The position numbers were made by a program, and so were the translations under genes. From Microcaldota archaeon (GTDB lineage Archaea > Micrarchaeota > Micrarchaeia > Micrarchaeales > Micrarchaeaceae): DNA of 10,000 bases. The DNA lies in the NCBI GenBank assembly GCA_030039935.1, contig JASHUQ010000088.1, positions 1 to 10,000 on the forward strand, given 5' to 3'. Positions 1,701 to 9,780 of the stretch are shown one piece after another (position 1 is the stretch's first letter; each line of letters starts with the position of its first letter). The notes below the pieces were generated by a model, which made no database searches, was not told where the DNA came from, and saw only the letters and a list, made by a program, of their open reading frames with translations.

Positions 1701-1960
1701 ATGTTTACGAAGTCTTTTGCGCCCTTTCCTTTAGGAAAAGCCCTGCAGTTCTGCGATTCAACCGGCAGTCCAATCTCATCAGCGAGCCTCGAGACCTCGC
1801 TCATATCAACCAACCGGTCCGCATGCAGCTCTGTGAATTTCTCGTTTCCAATCTCAATCCTCTTTACCCTGAATGTGAGATACTGAAGCATACCAGACCT
1901 CTTGACCCTTAGCTTTATCTCCCCGTTTTTTATTATGCTTCTTGCATATTCAGATATCAT
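1697..1960 (-). CDS. Small basic protein, unrecognised
   Basis: An 87-residue protein rich in Lys/Arg/Glu with no hydrophobic segment, so probably cytoplasmic. The N-terminal half (about residues 12-43) reads as beta strands (GEIKLRVKR, YLTFRVKRIEIG). The middle (about 47-63) is a likely helix (RLVDMSEVSRLADEIG). The tail contains a basic FPKGKGAKDF patch. This could suit nucleic-acid or ribosome binding, but that is a guess; there is one Cys and no metal-binding motif. I judge it real because its composition is balanced, it fills the space between neighbours exactly, it has a TATA-like TTTATATT about 35 nt upstream of its ATG, and the competing plus-strand frames read poorly. Its TAG stop overlaps the TAA of the convergent gene by 4 nt. 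It is divergent from nuoH, with only 56 nt between the starts. Confidence 0.7.
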   Translation of the reverse strand: MISEYARSIIKNGEIKLRVKRSGMLQYLTFRVKRIEIGNEKFTELHADRLVDMSEVSRLADEIGLPVESQNCRAFPKGKGAKDFVNI

Positions 1961-1990
1961 TCAATCAATTTACTCTCTTGTTCGCAAAAC

Positions 1991-1999
1991 AATATAAAT
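1991..1999. promoter_or_regulatory. TATA-like box in the divergent promoter region before nuoH
   Basis: AATATAAAT sits in the 56-nt gap (1961-2016) between the divergent small gene and nuoH. On the plus strand it is preceded by CGCAAAAC, an acceptable purine-rich BRE. Its centre lies about 22 nt before the ATG at 2017 and about 31 nt before the ATG at 2026, the usual archaeal spacing for a short or absent leader. On the minus strand it reads ATTTATATT, close to the archaeal TATA consensus, about 35 nt before the ATG of the small gene. It is the only TATA-like element in the gap, so it may drive both directions. No operator-like inverted repeat was seen. Confidence 0.5.
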
Positions 2000-2016
2000 G
2001 TGAGAGTAGAAGGAAC

Positions 2017-3069
2017 ATGGATGAGATGCTCCAGATAAGCTCTGGGTTCATAAGCAATATTTTCAATAGCTTTCAATCAGCGCTAAACCGGATTGTTGGA
2101 CCAGCAATAGCAGCGCCTCTTGCGCTCATAATCGCGTTTATAGCTTTCGCAGTAACCCTAATGATACTTGTAACCCTTTTTGTCTATTTTGTTGGATGGT
2201 TTGAAAGGAAGTTCATGGCAAGGGCGCAGTCTCGCCACGGCCCGACATATGTAGGAAAATATGGGATACTCCAGAACTTTGCTGACCTTGTCAAGCTTCT
2301 TTCCAAAGAGAACATAGTTCCGGATAATGCAGACAAATACCTTTTCCAAGTATCGATTCCTGCAATACTTGGCGCATTTGTGCTAATGCTCTCTTTCATT
2401 CCTCTTACGCAAACCTATGTGGGAATAGACACAAGCATAGGGTTGATCGTTGTTTTCATGCTGCTTTCTCTTGCCCCGATACTTATATTCGTGTCAGGAT
2501 GGACCAGCGGGAACAAGTTCGCGTCTATAGGCGCAGAGAGGTCTGTTGTTCTTCTTATAAGTTATGAGATTCCACTGCTTCTTGTTATAGTCGCAATAGC
2601 GATGCTGGCAAACAGCTACAATTTCTCCAGCATAATATCCGCACAGAACGGCTTCTGGTTCGCTGTTCTAATGCCAATAGGGTTTGTGGTGTTTTTCATA
2701 ATAATGATGGCAGAGTTCGAAAGGCCCCCATTCGATGTAAGAGAAGCGGACAGCGAGCTTATTGCAGGATGGCTTACTGATGTGAGCGCGCCATACTATG
2801 GGCTTGTCCTGTTTCTTGATTATGCTAGGCTTTTCACTGGCTCTCTGCTCATAACCGTTTTGTTCCTCGGGGGCTATCTCGGGCCAAGCATACTTCCGCC
2901 GTTTGCCTGGACAATAGTAAAAGTTGTTGCAATAACATTGCTGGTCATACTTGCGAGGGTTACATTTGTAAGGATGAGGATAGACAGGATACTAAGGCTC
3001 GGATGGCTGTACCTTACTCCTTTAGCCATAGTTAATTTATTACTTACATTTGTATTGTTTATCCATTAG
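2017..3069 (+). CDS. nuoH: Complex I subunit NuoH (NADH-quinone oxidoreductase subunit H / ND1-like)
   Basis: Membrane subunit that anchors the peripheral arm and forms much of the quinone-binding cavity and the first half-channel. About eight hydrophobic helices are visible in 350 residues, a normal family length. Family signatures: SRHGPTYVG with YGILQNFADLVKLLSKE (about 72-97), GWTSGNKFASIGAERS with ISYEIP (about 161-186), and the hallmark loop AEFERPPFDVREADSELIAG (about 232-251). The last corresponds to AETNRxPFDLPEAESELVAG in E. coli-type proteins. Differences from the classical sequence are ETNR to EFER, the final E of EAE to D, and the TEYSG-type motif to TDVSA. The reading frame is open back to a TTG at 1942, but that would overlap the divergent gene and its promoter. 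ATG 2017 is preferred, preceded by AAGGA; ATG 2026 is possible. It is the first gene of the run, and nuoI begins 8 nt after its stop. Confidence 0.96.
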   Translation: MDEMLQISSGFISNIFNSFQSALNRIVGPAIAAPLALIIAFIAFAVTLMILVTLFVYFVGWFERKFMARAQSRHGPTYVGKYGILQNFADLVKLLSKENIVPDNADKYLFQVSIPAILGAFVLMLSFIPLTQTYVGIDTSIGLIVVFMLLSLAPILIFVSGWTSGNKFASIGAERSVVLLISYEIPLLLVIVAIAMLANSYNFSSIISAQNGFWFAVLMPIGFVVFFIIMMAEFERPPFDVREADSELIAGWLTDVSAPYYGLVLFLDYARLFTGSLLITVLFLGGYLGPSILPPFAWTIVKVVAITLLVILARVTFVRMRIDRILRLGWLYLTPLAIVNLLLTFVLFIH

Positions 3070-3077
3070 ATGATATA

Positions 3078-3440
3078 TTGATTGTAAAACCTGTTGTTGA
3101 CATTGGAAAAGAGGCGCTGCACAAGCCGCAAACTCTGGAGTATCCGGATGAAAGGGAGGCAGTAACAGACAACTATAGGGGAATACACAAGCTCGACATG
3201 AAAACATGCATAAGCTGCTCTGCATGCCAGAGGATCTGCCCGAACCAGACAATAAACATGGTAGAGGTGAATACAGAAAAGGGGAAAAAGCTCATGCCGG
3301 AGATAAACCTTGAGAGATGCCTTTTCTGCGCCCTATGCGAAGAGGTCTGCCCAACCGAATGCCTGATACTCACAAAGGATTATGATTTTGAGAGGTTTGA
3401 CAGAAGAGAGTTCATAAAGAGACCAGAGGACTTGAAGTAA
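3078..3440 (+). CDS. nuoI: Complex I subunit NuoI, two-[4Fe-4S] ferredoxin-like protein
   Basis: Fe-S subunit of the peripheral arm that passes electrons through clusters N6a/N6b toward NuoB and the quinone. Two complete cluster motifs are visible: CISCSACQRICP (Cys 44, 47, 50, 54) and CLFCALCEEVCP (Cys 81, 84, 87, 91), the standard crossed-ligand pattern. The preceding YPDEREAVTDNYRGIHKL (about 22-39) is the usual NuoI lead-in (YPxE...FRGxHxL). At 120 residues it is shorter than typical bacterial NuoI (roughly 150-180), mainly at both ends. The start is TTG at 3078, the only start that keeps the conserved KPxTLEYP segment. The first in-frame ATG (3198) would leave only three residues before the first cluster motif. 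GATGAT at 3069-3074 is a weak Shine-Dalgarno-like match. It lies between nuoH and nuoJ in canonical order. Confidence 0.95.
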   Translation: MIVKPVVDIGKEALHKPQTLEYPDEREAVTDNYRGIHKLDMKTCISCSACQRICPNQTINMVEVNTEKGKKLMPEINLERCLFCALCEEVCPTECLILTKDYDFERFDRREFIKRPEDLK

Positions 3441-3454
3441 AAGAACTGTTGGTC

Positions 3455-3952
3455 ATGGTCATGATTTACATTGTCACATATATCGTAGCTGCACTTATAT
3501 TGATAGCAAGCGCTCTTGTTTTCATATTCAAGGATGTACTGCACATAGCTGTTGCGCTTTCCACAGTCTTCCTGATAAATTCTGTCTTGTTCCTAATTCT
3601 GCAGCAGCCCATCCTCGCCGTAATCCAATTGTTCATAATGATAGGTGGGGTATCTACCTATCTTTTTGTAGGAGTCGCAGCGGCGAGCTATTCAAATTTC
3701 AAGTATACAAACTATATCGCCCTTGTTGGATTGTCAATAGTGATATTCTCTGCAATAACATACGGGGCATACAGCACAAGTACAATAACGCAGGCCGGCA
3801 CATCAAATTCCATAAACACATTTTCTTCCAATTCAATAGCGAGTACATTCAACTCCAGCTACTCAATAATTTCCTTTTATATAATAGGGATAATGCTTTT
3901 TTCGATTGCAATAACAGCTATTCTTCTTTTGAATAGGCTAAGAAGTGTATAA
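3455..3952 (+). CDS. nuoJ: Complex I subunit NuoJ (ND6-like)
   Basis: Membrane subunit linking NuoH to NuoK. About five hydrophobic helices fit the family. An ungapped comparison from DVLH (like NPVH in E. coli NuoJ) runs through the TM3 region IQLFIMIGGVSTYLF, the counterpart of the E. coli stretch EIIVYAGAIMVLF. The Gly at the TM3 bulge is kept. The conserved Tyr (E. coli Y59) is Met (codon 3638-3640) and the preceding Glu is Gln. The stretch at about 109-140 is a Ser/Thr/Asn-rich extramembrane loop. Start choice is uncertain: TTG 3449, ATG 3455 and ATG 3461 are all in frame with no clear Shine-Dalgarno. I use 3455. The stop is one nucleotide before the nuoK ATG. Confidence 0.9.
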   Translation: MVMIYIVTYIVAALILIASALVFIFKDVLHIAVALSTVFLINSVLFLILQQPILAVIQLFIMIGGVSTYLFVGVAAASYSNFKYTNYIALVGLSIVIFSAITYGAYSTSTITQAGTSNSINTFSSNSIASTFNSSYSIISFYIIGIMLFSIAITAILLLNRLRSV

Positions 3953-3953
3953 A

Positions 3954-4253
3954 ATGTTTGGAATATTCTTGCTGCTGAGCTTTGCGCTGTTCTCTCTGGG
4001 GATAGCCGGTATAGCGGCGTCAAGGCATTTCGTGGTAATGATACTAAGTGTTGAGATACTGCTTGTTGGAAGCTCCCTCCTCGCTCTGTCTTCCTATGCA
4101 TATATAGCAACAGGGCAGATCCTTGTCCTGCTATTCGCAATATGGTCTATAGCGGCATTGGAGGTAATCGCCCTTGTTGTATTCTACAGATATTTGGCAA
4201 AGCTTGAAGTGAGCATGAATGTTACAAAGCTTATGAAATACAAAGAAAGATAG
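3954..4253 (+). CDS. nuoK: Complex I subunit NuoK (ND4L-like)
   Basis: Small three-helix membrane subunit, MrpC-like, between NuoJ and the first antiporter-like subunit. At 99 residues the length is standard. Both conserved membrane glutamates of the E-channel are present: one in MILSVEILLVGSSL (TM2, like E. coli E36) and one in SIAALEVIALVVFYR (TM3, like E. coli E72 in AAAEAxIGL). The classical SLGIAGIAASR segment in TM1 and its following loop is also recognisable. ATG 3954 begins one nucleotide after the nuoJ stop. A GTG at 3945 in the same frame would add three residues and overlap nuoJ by 8 nt, so translational coupling is likely either way. Confidence 0.93.
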   Translation: MFGIFLLLSFALFSLGIAGIAASRHFVVMILSVEILLVGSSLLALSSYAYIATGQILVLLFAIWSIAALEVIALVVFYRYLAKLEVSMNVTKLMKYKER

Positions 4254-4262
4254 CGCGATCTA

Positions 4263-6050
4263 ATGAACCCATTAATCATATTGTTGCCGATTCTTCTTGG
4301 AGGGATATTGTCGCTCGCATCCCAGAAGTACTCAAGGTTCATAGCACTTGCAGGGTCTGTACTGTCTTCAATAGTGATTATTTTTGTTTTGCTCGGAAGC
4401 TCTTTTTCTTTTGCATCCGCATATACGGCGGCGTTGCCAACATATTCGCTTAACTGGTTTTCTCTCAGCACATTGAGCGTATCGCTTTACCTTTCCACAA
4501 TGTCAATAAACGAGCTTCTGCTAATCCTTGTCGGGATAATTTCTCCCTTGATATTCTGGTACTCGATAGGCTATATGGATGTTCCAAGCGAAAACAGCCG
4601 CTATTACTTTGAGCTTAGCGTTTTTGCTGCCTCCATGCTGCTTTTCGCAATGTCAGCCGATTTCATAACAATGTTCATAGCCTGGGAAGGCCTTGGAATA
4701 ACAAGCTATTTGCTTATAGGTTTCTGGTACAACAAAAGAGAGCCACCATACGCGGCAAGAAAAGCCATCACAACAATAATAATTGGAGACATACTCATGC
4801 TTTCCGGGATACTTATAATATGGACCAGTTTCCATACATTCGTTTTCTCAACTCTTATAAACTCCCAGGCAACGCAGTCAACGAACTTTGCAATAGCACT
4901 GCTGCTTATTTTGTTTGCATCATTTACCAAATCTGCGCAGTTCCCGTTCCACGAGTGGCTTTCAGATGCAATGGAGGGGCCAACCCCAGTTTCAGCATTT
5001 CTTCATTCATCGACAATGGTAAAAGCTGGTGTGTTCCTCATCGCCCTCTTGCTCCCTTTGTACATATCCGCGCATCTTCTTCCTGTAATTCTAGTTTTTG
5101 GAATAATCACCGCAATTTTTGGAGTGATTAATGCTGTTTCATCTAAGCACATTAAGAAGATACTCGCATACTCGACAATAGAGGACCTTGGCCTCATGTT
5201 TGTTGCACTTGGCCTCGGAGCCATTTTGGCGGCGCTTCTTCTCTTCATTGTGCAAACATTTTACAAGGCGCTCATGTTCATGAACGCTGGCTCAATAATG
5301 AAAGCAAACGATGAAGAGACAAATATATACAAAATATATTCTTTTGGCGGAAACAAAACGCTGCTTGCAGCGGCTGTTATTGGTTCGCTCTCTCTGGCCG
5401 GAGTGTTTCCGTTCAGCGGCTTTCTGGGAAAGGCGGCAATAGATACATCGGCATCATCAAACATAATGGTTTATTTGATACTGGTAGCGCTTGATTTCCT
5501 CACGGCATTCTATATTTTCAGATGGTTGTTTGTTCCAATGAAACAGCAGAAATCAAACCCGCGCGATTCAAGAATAGGAACAAATTTCGCATACGCAAAA
5601 AAGAGCATGATAGTCCCGCAGCTTATTCTTTCTGTAATTGTCATCGGGGTTTCTCTATTTGCATTTTACATGAATTCAATAAGCCAATACATAACGACAA
5701 CGGATTTGATTATAGAGAGCGCAGTTTCCATAGCTGGGGTTGCTGTTGCGCTTTTTGTATTTTACATTCCAAAGAGGGCGCTTTTCTCAGAGAGAAGTGC
5801 GGCAAGGAACTTCCTTTCAAAAGGCTTGTTTGTTAACGCGGCATATTACTACATAGCAAGGTTTGTCCAGCTCGTCGCGCACGCAATAGACATATTTGAC
5901 TATGAGCTCAACAGGTTCTTCTATTCCGGAGCGAGGGGAACCACGGATTTAGGAAACGCCATAAGAAAGACGGAGAGCGGCTCTGTCAATCTATACCTAA
6001 CAGCATTTGCCGTAGGCCTCATATTTATAATACTGATATTAGTTTTGTGA
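4263..6050 (+). CDS. nuoL: Complex I subunit NuoL (ND5-like, distal proton-pumping antiporter-like subunit)
   Basis: Largest antiporter-like subunit of the membrane arm, 595 residues, close to the usual ~610. Core channel residues are retained: E142 in FIAWEGLGITSYLL (TM5, like E. coli E144), K223 in FTKSAQFPFHEWLSDAMEGP (TM7, like K229), H248 in TPVSAFLHSSTMV (TM8, like H254), K335 in QTFYKALMF (like K342) and K390 in GVFPFSGFLGK (TM12, like K399). Residue 391 is Ala where E. coli has D400. The two TM11 histidines of E. coli (H334/H338) correspond to L327 and Q331. The C-terminal part has a polar stretch that fits the lateral amphipathic helix and ends in a final TM helix (about 575-595), so the gene is complete. 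ATG 4263 lies 9 nt after the nuoK stop; nuoM begins 4 nt after its stop. Confidence 0.96.
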   Translation: MNPLIILLPILLGGILSLASQKYSRFIALAGSVLSSIVIIFVLLGSSFSFASAYTAALPTYSLNWFSLSTLSVSLYLSTMSINELLLILVGIISPLIFWYSIGYMDVPSENSRYYFELSVFAASMLLFAMSADFITMFIAWEGLGITSYLLIGFWYNKREPPYAARKAITTIIIGDILMLSGILIIWTSFHTFVFSTLINSQATQSTNFAIALLLILFASFTKSAQFPFHEWLSDAMEGPTPVSAFLHSSTMVKAGVFLIALLLPLYISAHLLPVILVFGIITAIFGVINAVSSKHIKKILAYSTIEDLGLMFVALGLGAILAALLLFIVQTFYKALMFMNAGSIMKANDEETNIYKIYSFGGNKTLLAAAVIGSLSLAGVFPFSGFLGKAAIDTSASSNIMVYLILVALDFLTAFYIFRWLFVPMKQQKSNPRDSRIGTNFAYAKKSMIVPQLILSVIVIGVSLFAFYMNSISQYITTTDLIIESAVSIAGVAVALFVFYIPKRALFSERSAARNFLSKGLFVNAAYYYIARFVQLVAHAIDIFDYELNRFFYSGARGTTDLGNAIRKTESGSVNLYLTAFAVGLIFIILILVL

Positions 6051-6054
6051 TGGA

Positions 6055-7461
6055 ATGACAATATTACTTTCATTGATCGCAGTTCCAATACTGTTCCTGG
6101 CCTTGATGCTTCTCACAAAGAGGCGCAGCGGGTCGCTAGCCACAATATCCACTTTTATAAGCCTTGTTATAGTTGTTTATCTCCTGATTTTCTCGATAAT
6201 AAACAAAAGCGCAAGCATAAACGAAAGCTACAGCTACATATCAAGCCTCGGCATAGGATTCGACCTCAGCCTCAACTCGATATCCCTTGTATTGCTGCTC
6301 ATGTCATCGATAATACTTTTCGTTACAGCGTTGAGCGGCAACATAAAAAAAGAGATGGAAAGAACAGCAAGCATTCTCCTTGTACTGTTCCAGATCGGCG
6401 CTACCGGCCTTTTCCTTTCTGGAAACCTCTTCTTGTTCTTCATATTCTGGGACATAGGCGTCATAGCCCCGTTCTTCATGATAAATATACTTGGATCTGC
6501 CAACAGGAGGAACGCATCCTATAAGTTCATAATATATGAAATATTCGCAAGCGCACTTCTTCTATTCGGGATAATACTGATCTACATTTTCGCCCCTGGG
6601 CATTCGCTCAGCATAGCTGGCCTTTCAAGCTCGCTGTCACAGATGCCTATGTACGTACAGCAATTGACATTCATACTCTTGTTCCTCGCATTCATGATAA
6701 ACATGCCGATATTCCCTTTGCACTCATGGCTCCCAGATGCGCATACAGAGGCATCAACACAAGGATCTATGGTTCTTTCTGGAATTCTTACAAAGTTCGG
6801 AGGGTTTGGCATGCTGATAATATTCACCAGTTTTACAATAGCGCATAACTATTCATTTTACATTGCGGTTCTTTCGGTCGTTTCTGCATTCTATGCCGCT
6901 CTTCTTATAATGCGCCAGCACGACATAAAAAGAATAGTCGCGTATACTACGATAATAGAAATGTCGATAATAATGTTCGCAATAACCGCCATGAACACTC
7001 TTGGATTATACGGCGCCCTGTTCGCAATGCTGGCTCACGGACTTGTTGTTGCCCTAATGTTTCTCGCAGCTGGCTCCATAGAGCACGCGTTCTCTGAGAG
7101 AAGCATAGACGTGCTCAAGGGAATAGCCGCAGATGCAAAGCTCACATCATATGTGTTCCTTGTAGGAATACTTGCAATTACAGGGGTTCCCCTTACAACG
7201 GGGTTCATAGCCGATGTGGCAATGTTCCTTGGGGCAATAGGAGCATATGGAGCATATGCAGTAATTCCTTTGTTCTCTCTTGTGCTTCTTGGGGGTTTCA
7301 TGTACTACGTTGTAAACAAATCAATATTCTCTACAAAAGAAAGGACCCAAAGCTCTGCTTTCATAGGATCAAGCCAAAAAATAGGATACGCCATCCTATT
7401 GGCATCAATATTCATATTTGGGATAATTCCATCAATAATATTGAATATCATAAACATATAG
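6055..7461 (+). CDS. nuoM: Complex I subunit NuoM (ND4-like) with substituted channel residues
   Basis: Middle antiporter-like subunit, 468 residues (E. coli about 509), with about 14 hydrophobic helices. Identity rests on FPLHSWLPDAHTEAST (about 220-235), the LSGILTKFGGFG helix, RQHDIKRIVAYTTI (about 287-300) and AHGLVVALMFLAAG. Lys 247 matches E. coli K265. Other channel positions differ. FWDIGVIAPF has D133 where E. coli has essential E144. AFMINMP has N216 where E. coli AFAVKMP has essential K234. TTGFIADV has D387 where E. coli has E407. The alignments are short and ungapped with strong flanking identity, so I trust the positions. The start ATG 6055 follows GTGAT (6047-6051), a Shine-Dalgarno-like match overlapping the nuoL stop. 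It is more like NuoM than NuoL/NuoN in the HTEA(S/P)T signature. Confidence 0.94.
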   Translation: MTILLSLIAVPILFLALMLLTKRRSGSLATISTFISLVIVVYLLIFSIINKSASINESYSYISSLGIGFDLSLNSISLVLLLMSSIILFVTALSGNIKKEMERTASILLVLFQIGATGLFLSGNLFLFFIFWDIGVIAPFFMINILGSANRRNASYKFIIYEIFASALLLFGIILIYIFAPGHSLSIAGLSSSLSQMPMYVQQLTFILLFLAFMINMPIFPLHSWLPDAHTEASTQGSMVLSGILTKFGGFGMLIIFTSFTIAHNYSFYIAVLSVVSAFYAALLIMRQHDIKRIVAYTTIIEMSIIMFAITAMNTLGLYGALFAMLAHGLVVALMFLAAGSIEHAFSERSIDVLKGIAADAKLTSYVFLVGILAITGVPLTTGFIADVAMFLGAIGAYGAYAVIPLFSLVLLGGFMYYVVNKSIFSTKERTQSSAFIGSSQKIGYAILLASIFIFGIIPSIILNIINI

Positions 7462-7469
7462 GCGAATGA

Positions 7470-8891
7470 ATGGCAATATCGGCAATAATGCAAATGCAGT
7501 TCGTATATATTCTTGTAGCATCGCTCATCCTTCTCACAGTTTCTAATATATTGTCTGTTTTCTCAAGGCGTCACAAGATTGCGTTTTTTGGAACGATAGC
7601 ATTCTTGTTCATATCCCTTACAGCAACAGCATTGCTCTATGCATCAAACGCAAGCTTCTACTTTTTCAGCATATTCCACACGAATGCGTTCTCAGAGTTT
7701 TTCTTCATGTTCTTTGCAATAGCAATAATAATGGTGGAAACACTCTCTTACAAGTATAGCCACGAATTGCCGGCATTTTCACTTTTATTATCCCTTGTTA
7801 CATTCGGGGTGTTCCTCGTAACGTTTGCATACTCGTTAATAGCAATACTCGTTGGACTAGAAACCGTTGCGCTTGCTAGCACGTTTATGATAATAATGAA
7901 TGGGAAGAGGTTCGTAGAACCGGCAGTGAAGCTGTTCATACTCAGCGCAATATCAATAGCAATATTCACATTCGCGCTCGCTTTGCTTCTTCCATATGAT
8001 CCGCAATTGACTCTTTCTCTTCCAGGAACATCGCAGGCTGGTAGCTACCTGCTTGGATTGTCCCTTATACTATTTGCCGGGGCGTTGTCCTTGGATGCAG
8101 CGGCATTCCCATTCAACCTATGGGTTCCTGACGTGTACGAAGGATCTCCATCTAATGTAACCGCTCTGCTGGCTAGTGTAAACAAAAAAGTCTCATTCAT
8201 CGCCATACTCGAGGTTTTCATAATAATATTTGCGGCTTACAGATCCAGCTTCGGCACTCCTTTATTCTCTCTTGTGTTCTTCTTTTTGTCAATATTCACC
8301 ATGTTCTTCGGCAACCTTGTCGCCCTTGTGCAAAAGAACCTCAAAAGGCTATTCGCATATTCATCAATTTCTCAAGCCGGATATATTTTCATAGGGATAG
8401 CTGTTGCGAGCACAGCTGGAATACAGGCGAGCATATTCTACATTGTATCCCATATGTTCATGATAATCGGAGCATTTGCGATTGTGCTGTGGCTTGAGTC
8501 AAAGAGCATAAGAAATATAGATGAATGCACAGGACTTGCATCAAAGAACTCCTTCGCGGCAATAAGCCTCACGATACTGATGCTGTCTATGGCCGGAATA
8601 CCTCCATTGGTTGGATTCATTGGAAAATTCCTGCTTTTCTCCAGCGCGGTGTATGCAAACGATGCTGTTCTTGCATTTATAGGAATAATAAACAGCTTCA
8701 TATCGATTTACTATTATGCAAAGGTGATAAACCAGATGTACACAAGAAGGCAAGGGAAGAAGATGCAGATGGACAAAAACATAGCCATTGTAGTGATCGT
8801 ATGCCTCATTTTCGTTATCGCGGTTGGAATATACCCACAGATCCTCATATCTGCTGCCTCATCGGCAGCCAGCGCGCTTGGCGCTGTCTGA
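7470..8891 (+). CDS. nuoN: Complex I subunit NuoN (ND2-like) with Asp in place of the TM7 lysine
   Basis: Proximal antiporter-like subunit, 473 residues (E. coli about 485), with about 14 helices. Signatures: ILVGLETVALAS with E131 (like E. coli E133), NLWVPDVYEGSPSNVTALLASVNK (about 216-239, like HLWTPDVYQGAPAPV...), KNLKRLFAYSSISQAGY, and MLSMAGIPPLVGFIGKF with K386 (like E. coli K395). Lys 239 matches K247. In the TM7 stretch SLDAAAFPFNLW, D209 occupies the position of essential K217 of E. coli FKLSLVPFHLW, and N216 replaces the His. The nearest upstream in-frame start is ATG 7470; ATGs at 7488 and 7494 are alternatives. It is the last gene of the Complex I run and is followed by a 202-nt non-coding or leader region. 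Confidence 0.94.
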   Translation: MAISAIMQMQFVYILVASLILLTVSNILSVFSRRHKIAFFGTIAFLFISLTATALLYASNASFYFFSIFHTNAFSEFFFMFFAIAIIMVETLSYKYSHELPAFSLLLSLVTFGVFLVTFAYSLIAILVGLETVALASTFMIIMNGKRFVEPAVKLFILSAISIAIFTFALALLLPYDPQLTLSLPGTSQAGSYLLGLSLILFAGALSLDAAAFPFNLWVPDVYEGSPSNVTALLASVNKKVSFIAILEVFIIIFAAYRSSFGTPLFSLVFFFLSIFTMFFGNLVALVQKNLKRLFAYSSISQAGYIFIGIAVASTAGIQASIFYIVSHMFMIIGAFAIVLWLESKSIRNIDECTGLASKNSFAAISLTILMLSMAGIPPLVGFIGKFLLFSSAVYANDAVLAFIGIINSFISIYYYAKVINQMYTRRQGKKMQMDKNIAIVVIVCLIFVIAVGIYPQILISAASSAASALGAV

Positions 8892-9093: not shown

Positions 9094-9780
9094 ATGCCAG
9101 TAAAGCTGAGGGTCGATTTCGGACAGCTGGATGAAAAGCTGTTGCCCTTGCTCAAAAGACCAGATATAGAAATTGCAGAGGAGAACAGCCAGGCGTTAAG
9201 CATAGAGCAGCTAGAGCAATCAGTAAGGATTACGGATGATCTAGCCTATTATTTTTCTGAAAATGCTATAGAACTGCTAAGGAGCGGACTGATAACAAGG
9301 TCAAAGAGACAGCTCAGCTACATTCCACATCAGATTGGGCTTGACAACTTTGAGACACAAGTAGAATTAGTGAAATCATTCATTGACGAAGAAGCAAGCG
9401 GGGCAGAGACCCGCCACGATGATGAATATTACAAAAAGATATCTGAGATCTCAACTTTCGTGGAGGGCATGCACTCAATTGTTCAGGTTGAAAGGCTGGC
9501 GTCAGGGCTTGTAAGATTTGTTGGAAGACTGAATGGCAATAGAAAAAGCCAGGCAAACAGCCTTGTGGATTTCCTTTTATCTGATGAGGGCGCAAGATTT
9601 GTCCCACTGATAAGCGCACTGGCAAGCGATACCGGTGTTACAGTATGTTACGACAGGGATTCCAAAGAATTTGTACCAGCGATCCCAGCACATCAACGCT
9701 CTAACCTTGGGCTGTTGCATCAATCATTTGTATCTGGGTCGCAACTTCTTGTGAGTCCGGATATACACCACACAATCTAA
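9094..9780 (+). CDS. Hypothetical soluble protein, unrecognised
   Basis: A 228-residue protein with no transmembrane segment and no signal peptide, probably cytoplasmic. I do not recognise a family. Most of it reads as helical: residues about 26-67 are Glu/Gln-rich with heptad-like leucines (ENSQALSIEQLEQSV, ENAIELLRSGL), and about 88-150 are also helical (VELVKSFIDEE, EYYKKISEISTFVEGM). The stretch around 155-205 (SLVDFLLSDEGARFVPLIS, then GVTVCYDRDSKEFVP) may be a small alpha/beta unit. There is a single Cys and no visible catalytic motif. ATG 9094 has no Shine-Dalgarno, which fits leaderless translation. The frame remains open for 46 codons upstream without a standard start, so the true N-terminus may be longer. 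Its TAA overlaps the TAG of the convergent gene by 4 nt. Codon use resembles its neighbours. Confidence 0.7.
   Translation: MPVKLRVDFGQLDEKLLPLLKRPDIEIAEENSQALSIEQLEQSVRITDDLAYYFSENAIELLRSGLITRSKRQLSYIPHQIGLDNFETQVELVKSFIDEEASGAETRHDDEYYKKISEISTFVEGMHSIVQVERLASGLVRFVGRLNGNRKSQANSLVDFLLSDEGARFVPLISALASDTGVTVCYDRDSKEFVPAIPAHQRSNLGLLHQSFVSGSQLLVSPDIHHTI

Follow-up and report, generated by a model that had tools for sequence, protein, structure and literature searches.

The lysine of transmembrane helix 7 (TM7) pairs with a glutamate of TM5 in each antiporter-like subunit of complex I, and this pair is a named element of competing mechanisms for the enzyme: the domino model treats it as a protonation switch (PMC10212512), and the wave model as an ion pair that alternately opens and closes (PMC9271201, PMC13324432). 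The TM7 lysine has been termed absolutely conserved in an Mrp structure paper (PMC7419157). In purified E. coli complex I, the NuoN variants K247A and K395A are severely impaired; E. coli NuoN K217A retains 46 to 56 percent of oxidase activity with pumping of 68% in vesicles and 109% in proteoliposomes, and E133A is near wild type (PMC13073174).

Two described subunits come close to the case reported here, each with a clear difference. HycC of E. coli formate hydrogenlyase is antiporter-like, with the TM5 Glu present and the TM7 Lys absent (PMC9474812), but it has Leu, not an acid, at the TM7 site and belongs to another complex. NuoM has an acid, Glu407, where its sister subunits have Lys, but this residue lies in TM12 rather than TM7 and is described as conserved in NuoM (PMC9271201). 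In the available part of a survey of how complex I is distributed among prokaryotes we noticed nothing on the TM7 residue (PMC12361115). Likewise, a search of the open-access literature turned up no natural NuoN described as having a TM7 acid, which, with few subscription papers covered, is weak evidence of absence.

The window, by which we mean the whole stretch of DNA that was analyzed, is an entire 10 kb contig from a 0.71 Mb draft genome of a member of the Micrarchaeota (DPANN). An open reading frame list and an NCBIfam profile search place nuoH, I, J, K, L, M, and N on its plus strand, the gene order expected of complex I:

1942..3440, plus strand: nuoH and nuoI, of the same gene cluster; nuoH start uncertain
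3449..3952, plus strand: nuoJ, with Met64 at the position of E. coli Tyr59
3945..4253, plus strand: nuoK, keeping Glu37 and Glu73 (E. coli E36 and E72)
4263..6050, plus strand: nuoL, keeping the classical set Glu145, Lys226, His251, and Lys393
6055..7461, plus strand: nuoM, with TM5 Asp137 (6463-6465), TM7 Asn220 (6712-6714), TM8 Lys251, and TM12 Asp391
7470..8891, plus strand: nuoN, an open reading frame of 473 amino acids with an acidic TM7 site

The TTG start listed for nuoH (1942-3069) leaves approximately 40-65 residues ahead of the NuoH profile matches, and the real start is probably further in. Two further reading frames, at 12-1700 (562 amino acids) and 9094-9780 (228 amino acids), are without an NCBIfam match. 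The same type of NuoN is found in genomes titled “Candidatus Micrarchaeota” (NCBI phylum Microcaldota), including Candidatus Micrarchaeum sp. A_DKE and Candidatus Mancarchaeum. Published accounts of complex I in these archaea differ on nuoEFG, with a survey of Micrarchaeota describing the complex without these genes (PMC5864196) and the paper on Ca. M. harzensis reporting a full NADH dehydrogenase (PMC8975820).

The best NCBIfam match of the 473-residue protein is TIGR01770 (NuoN), over residues 13-460 with 265.9 bits and an E-value of 7e-79. This falls below the curated cut-off of 332.6, which is passed by none of 295 genomes drawn from the phylum. Alignment with NuoN of E. coli K-12 assigns the functional residues as follows:

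7860..7862, plus strand: Glu131 (GAA), the TM5 Glu, E. coli E133; kept in 141 of 142 rows of the order
7929..7931, plus strand: Lys154, the TM6 Lys, E. coli K158; 142 of 142 rows
8094..8096, plus strand: Asp209 (GAT), at the position of the E. coli TM7 Lys217; acidic in 141 of 142 rows
8115..8117, plus strand: Asn216 (AAC), at the position of E. coli His224; Asn in 134, Asp in four, and Ser in four of 142 rows
8184..8189, plus strand: Lys239-Lys240, the central TM8 Lys (K239, E. coli K247) followed by an extra archaeal Lys
8625..8627, plus strand: Lys386, the TM12 Lys, E. coli K395; 141 of 141 readable rows, one row falling short of the site

The codons were read directly, and the residues, coordinates, and register that the preliminary description had given for D209 and N216 are correct, as is its observation that the TM5 Glu is intact. 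Misalignment by one or two residues was ruled out because the PFxLWxPDVY motif anchors the register, with the E. coli numbering checked. Consequently, the TM5 Glu, TM8 Lys, and TM12 Lys expected of a NuoN are all present, while the TM7 Lys that should pair with the TM5 Glu is absent and Asp209 stands in its place. An acid occupies this site in nearly all rows read from the order, and we regard the orthologue, lacking the Lys, as a NuoN variant, a non-canonical member of its kind.

The antiporter-like NuoN/ND2 fold is predicted to be present. An AlphaFold2 model built with 53 sequences (the window and named loci) has a mean pLDDT of 95.7 and a pTM of 0.95, and NuoN/ND2-type chains rank first among its Foldseek matches in the PDB. 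The protein thus shares with the NuoN/ND2/Nqo14 subunits, represented by E. coli NuoN (7z7s_N), the modeled fold (TM-score 0.87), the gene order, the TM5 Glu, and the lysines of TM6, TM8, and TM12. It differs in the changes of TM7 Lys217 to Asp or Glu and of His224 to Asn, Asp, or Ser, in an identity of 25% in the structural match, and in its profile score. The modeled helix of residues 192-209 ends at Asp209, matching the expected break in TM7.

The acid is a property of the archaeal order rather than of this one genome. In a first set of 56 NuoN proteins, from 60 genomes searched and including the window's own, the K217 column holds Glu in 45, Asp in ten, and Gly in one, the H224 column holds Asn in 55 and Ser in one, and E133, K158, K247, and K395 are each invariant, with identities to the window's protein spanning 28 to 64 percent. 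When the sample was enlarged to 142 rows from 141 of the order's 164 genomes (in the other 23, NuoN was not found, was only partial, or was not fetched), the K217 column became 110 Glu, 31 Asp, and one Gly, with Lys in none. The few departures at the other sites are one Ala at E133 and one Glu at K247, where the next Lys is kept. The Candidatus Micrarchaeum sp. A_DKE chromosome, titled complete (L237), has Glu at the TM7 site and Asp at the His site. Sequencing error, which the preliminary description had named as an explanation that would undo its reading, and a mutation private to this genome are thereby both rejected, because the acid recurs across the order.

Several features of the first set bear on whether the site is constrained. 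It is one of six NuoN columns that are acidic in at least 50 of the 56 rows. On a tree of the 56 rows, built with the TM7 column removed, the column changes nine times over Glu, Asp, and Gly, and just once between acid and non-acid. Assuming that all single-base changes of a Glu codon are equally likely and free of selection, the probability that at least eight of nine changes lead to Asp is approximately 3e-4, although this codon-based figure is a rough argument. To judge from these alignments, the TM7 site looks to be held acidic and not to be drifting. In the row with the lone Gly (L053, genome G034), a Glu stands two positions further along, at a site occupied by Ser, Ala, or Gly in the other 55 rows.

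That exception also bears on a different explanation, namely that at the helix break the TM7 acid serves structure or hydration without relaying protons itself. The acid is the last residue of the modeled helix, the His-to-Asn/Asp/Ser change falls in the stretch after it, and the only genome to lose the acid has one close by. Capping a helix does not require strictly Glu or Asp, however, and the site is among the key protonatable positions in published models (PMC10212512), so that we consider a purely structural role unlikely.

A basic residue moved into the TM7 region from elsewhere could restore the missing charge, as the preliminary description had recognized. We took the columns that carry a charge in 80 percent or more of the 56 Micrarchaeota rows and compared them with 15 Lys-type rows from Thermoplasmata, 16 Lys-type bacterial rows (including E. 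coli), and other acid-type rows. This comparison showed no conserved basic column of the core that is peculiar to Micrarchaeota, and a newly placed Lys or Arg of that kind can be set aside. Lys240 was rejected as compensation because it is also carried by 13 of the 15 Lys-type Thermoplasmata proteins. Positions 146 and 427 are basic more often in the order than elsewhere; in the AlphaFold2 model their places are the start of a helix and a loop, and the idea of a lysine shifted into the TM7 site was rejected with them. What is largely or wholly special to the order in the same comparison is Glu343 and the His-to-Asn change at 216.

Across natural NuoN proteins, the sites kept and the sites changed follow the E. 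coli mutants, the lysines of TM8 and TM12 being essential and nearly invariant and the TM5 Glu and TM7 Lys replaceable. We find it somewhat more probable than its opposite that this NuoN still pumps protons, with a protonatable carboxylate pair replacing Lys-Glu and the acid kept by selection. Because the TM7 site is kept acidic in the order, it probably does something there, as the partner of the TM5 Glu. In this model, the TM7 Lys would have given way to a carboxylate early in the history of Micrarchaeota complex I, the direction from Lys to acid being the probable one, and Glu or Asp would have been retained by selection afterwards. NuoN would still be a proton-transfer element, in which the acid at the break of helix 7 acts as the protonatable switch partner of TM5 Glu131. 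The Glu-Glu pair (Asp-Glu in the window), if its members indeed face each other, could share a proton in place of the Lys-Glu ion pair, while the TM8 and TM12 lysines would perform the essential proton hand-over as in E. coli. Such a pair would be one charge more negative than that of E. coli and would hold the same number of mobile protons. The lower H+/e- ratio that had been suggested is not supported, as E. coli K217A keeps the pumping quoted above with its oxidase activity roughly halved, and E133A comes close to wild type (PMC13073174). The pumping by K217A also means that the site may tolerate many residues, in which case the conservation of the acid would be the sole sign of its function.

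Two neighboring carboxylates might alternatively form a cation site, so that NuoN couples to Na+ or K+ instead of H+. Carboxylates, Asn, and Ser have been proposed as ligands of Na+ in Mrp and MBH (PMC7419157), although at a site in other subunits, outside the MrpD-like one. The TM8 and TM12 lysines, which would repel a cation, are kept in the order, and its NuoK keeps the Glu pair of complex I (E36 in 53 of 53 rows, E72 acidic in 52 of 53), which argues for the complex I type and against Na+-coupled Mrp/MBH antiporters. We regard a change of coupling ion as very improbable.

To see how far the acid extends beyond the order, we searched a genome collection of 84,980 species with a DNA pattern in which Glu or Asp precedes the Trp of the PFxxW..DVY[EQ]G motif by nine residues; the pattern demands both the Trp and DVY[EQ]G and covers only NuoN proteins having both. 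The scan returned 106 stretches, of which 57 are of the Micrarchaeota type (53 Microcaldota and four titled Marsarchaeota with the same PFN motif) and two were not counted, one where the pattern was not found again (L179) and one with a context that is not NuoN-like (L225). The other 47, which are loci and not genomes, with two possible per genome, comprise 24 from Pseudomonadota, six from Thermoplasmatota, three from Bacillota, two each from Aquificota, Thermodesulfobacteriota, and Chlamydiota, one each from Acidobacteriota and Myxococcota, and six without a phylum. Antiporter reading frames from class-level relatives were set aside as comparators for NuoN, their best match being NuoM or NuoL; the four whose motif was read (L121-L124) have the TM7 Lys.

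Genomes drawn from around some of the acid-type loci give the background. An open pattern matched 20 of 145 genomes drawn from the phylum of a Sysuiplasma genome (Thermoplasmatota), 19 with Lys and one, the chosen center, with Glu. Of 185 genomes drawn from the class to which a Rhodanobacter genome belongs, two (one being the center) matched acid patterns and 77 matched Lys patterns. The family of another Rhodanobacteraceae genome (that of L155) gave 58 matches in 59 genomes, three with Glu, the center included, and 55 with Lys. The acid-type NuoN of Rhodanobacteraceae and other bacteria (L155, L169, L182) resembles that of the order in TM7 Glu, TM5 Glu, and the TM8 and TM12 lysines, but keeps His224 and, around L155, is confined to those three genomes.

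These distributions bear on a proposal of the preliminary description, that with the TM7 acid the enzyme is adapted to the large inward proton gradient of acid habitats. Acid mine drainage and hot springs are indeed the main sources of published Micrarchaeota genomes (PMC5864196), and the habitats of the other acid-type loci can at most be guessed from isolate names. Lys is nevertheless kept in those 19 of 20 matching genomes of the Thermoplasmatota draw, whatever their own habitats, and the acid occurs in loci named Parachlamydia, Desulfobacteraceae, and Betaproteobacteria as well as Rhodanobacter. An explanation by acid habitat seems to us highly unlikely.

On a tree of 99 rows, built with the TM5, TM7, and His columns removed and using 26 of the 56 Micrarchaeota rows, there are at least nine changes between Lys and acid; outside Micrarchaeota, rows were chosen by the acid pattern, which over-represents the acid type in the tree as well as in the counts, and therefore the direction and number of these changes are known only roughly. 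The 26 Micrarchaeota rows form one side of a branch with an SH-aLRT of 100. The acid-type Thermoplasmata rows group with Lys-type Thermoplasmata, and those of Rhodanobacter fall among Lys rows. Inheritance of the order's NuoN from Sysuiplasma-type Thermoplasmata was considered and is not supported, given that branch, with the long-branch rows L086 and L087 unsure.

The Sysuiplasma-type proteins (L209, L148, L212) share with the order the TM7 Glu, the TM8 Lys-Lys, and the TM12 Lys, but they keep the His, form a separate clade, and have lost the TM5 Glu to Ala or Ser. Among the 38 non-Micrarchaeota acid-type proteins that could be aligned, TM5 has Glu in 33, Gln in one, and Ala or Ser in four, all four being Thermoplasmata. 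As the TM5 Glu is gone from all four of the aligned Thermoplasmata with a TM7 Glu (of six), a Glu-Glu pair is not needed there, which counts against the pairing proposed above. In these four (L209, L148, L212, L192) it looks as though the acid shifted from TM5 to TM7. The existence of natural enzymes with two acids, and of others with a TM7 acid without one in TM5, suggests that NuoN does not depend on which sign the charge at TM7 has.

The remaining membrane-arm subunits vary as well. In the window, NuoM aligns N220 with E. coli K234 (TM7), D137 with E144 (TM5), and D391 with E407 (TM12), so the earlier statement that NuoM lacks its TM7 Lys is right for this genome; it does not extend to the order, in which NuoM, found in 40 of 56 loci, has Asn at this site in 21 rows, Lys in 18, and Gly in one, with at least eight changes on the NuoN tree. 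Its TM5 residue is Asp in 30 of the 40. The accompanying claim that only NuoL keeps the classical pair holds for the window and fails for the order on the same 18 rows and on NuoL itself, where family f1 keeps the TM12 Lys (E. coli K399) in 31 of 32 rows and family f2 has it in none of its 22 readable rows. The f2 residues at that site are Asn in ten, Ser in six, Asp and Gly in two each, and Ala and Thr in one each (loci L065-L085, L087, L088). At the position of the TM3 gate tyrosine of NuoJ (E. coli Tyr59), the residues among 52 rows include Met (21), Phe (17), Leu (nine), Thr (two), and Val (one); the tyrosine is kept in the NuoJ of two Sysuiplasma-type Thermoplasmata. NuoH has E157 in 48 of 49 rows and E220 in 49 of 49. 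The genome with the lone Gly in NuoN (L053) has a nearly discharged arm: its NuoM is uncharged at four axis sites (Ser in TM5, Gly in TM7, Gln in TM8, and Tyr in TM12) and its NuoL has lost the TM8 His and the TM12 Lys, with NuoN keeping the TM5 Glu and the TM8 and TM12 lysines.

Since the NuoM, NuoL, and NuoJ sites vary in the order, the whole arm may work differently from that of E. coli. One form this could take is partial decoupling of NuoN, together with NuoM, in which the TM7 site has dropped out of pumping and fewer protons are moved per electron. The NuoM Asn, the absence of the NuoL TM12 Lys from f2, the losses in NuoM and NuoL of L053, and the Met, Phe, or Leu at the NuoJ gate in 47 of 52 rows would all fit such an enzyme, and the idea keeps some weight because small symbiont genomes may tolerate a simpler pump. 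It sits poorly with a NuoN whose TM5 Glu and TM6, TM8, and TM12 lysines are nearly invariant and whose TM7 site is kept acidic, and in E. coli K217A lowers pumping in only one of two assays (PMC13073174). On balance, we think decoupling doubtful.

Returning to a NuoN that pumps with two carboxylates, we tentatively put forward a broader possibility, which we rate as rather less than an even chance. Here, the polarity of the TM5/TM7 pair would lie outside the coupling of NuoN, a protonatable group at TM7 would suffice, and Lys and acid would have replaced one another on at least nine occasions. Within the order, the swap would be part of a re-charging of the membrane arm, comprising the Glu-to-Asp and Lys-to-Asn changes in NuoM, the loss of the NuoL TM12 Lys in f2, and that of the NuoJ gate Tyr. 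The tree supplies paired native cases, such as Rhodanobacteraceae with either Lys or Glu, that offer a natural test of the pump mechanism.

The two residues also occur side by side within single genomes. In the small phylum of the genome carrying L145, seven of nine genomes matched, and in two genomes a Glu-type NuoN coexists with a Lys-type one. Two-NuoN genomes are seen in L272/L273 (G706) and L274/L275 (G707), each with one protein bearing the TM7 Lys and one bearing a TM7 Glu.
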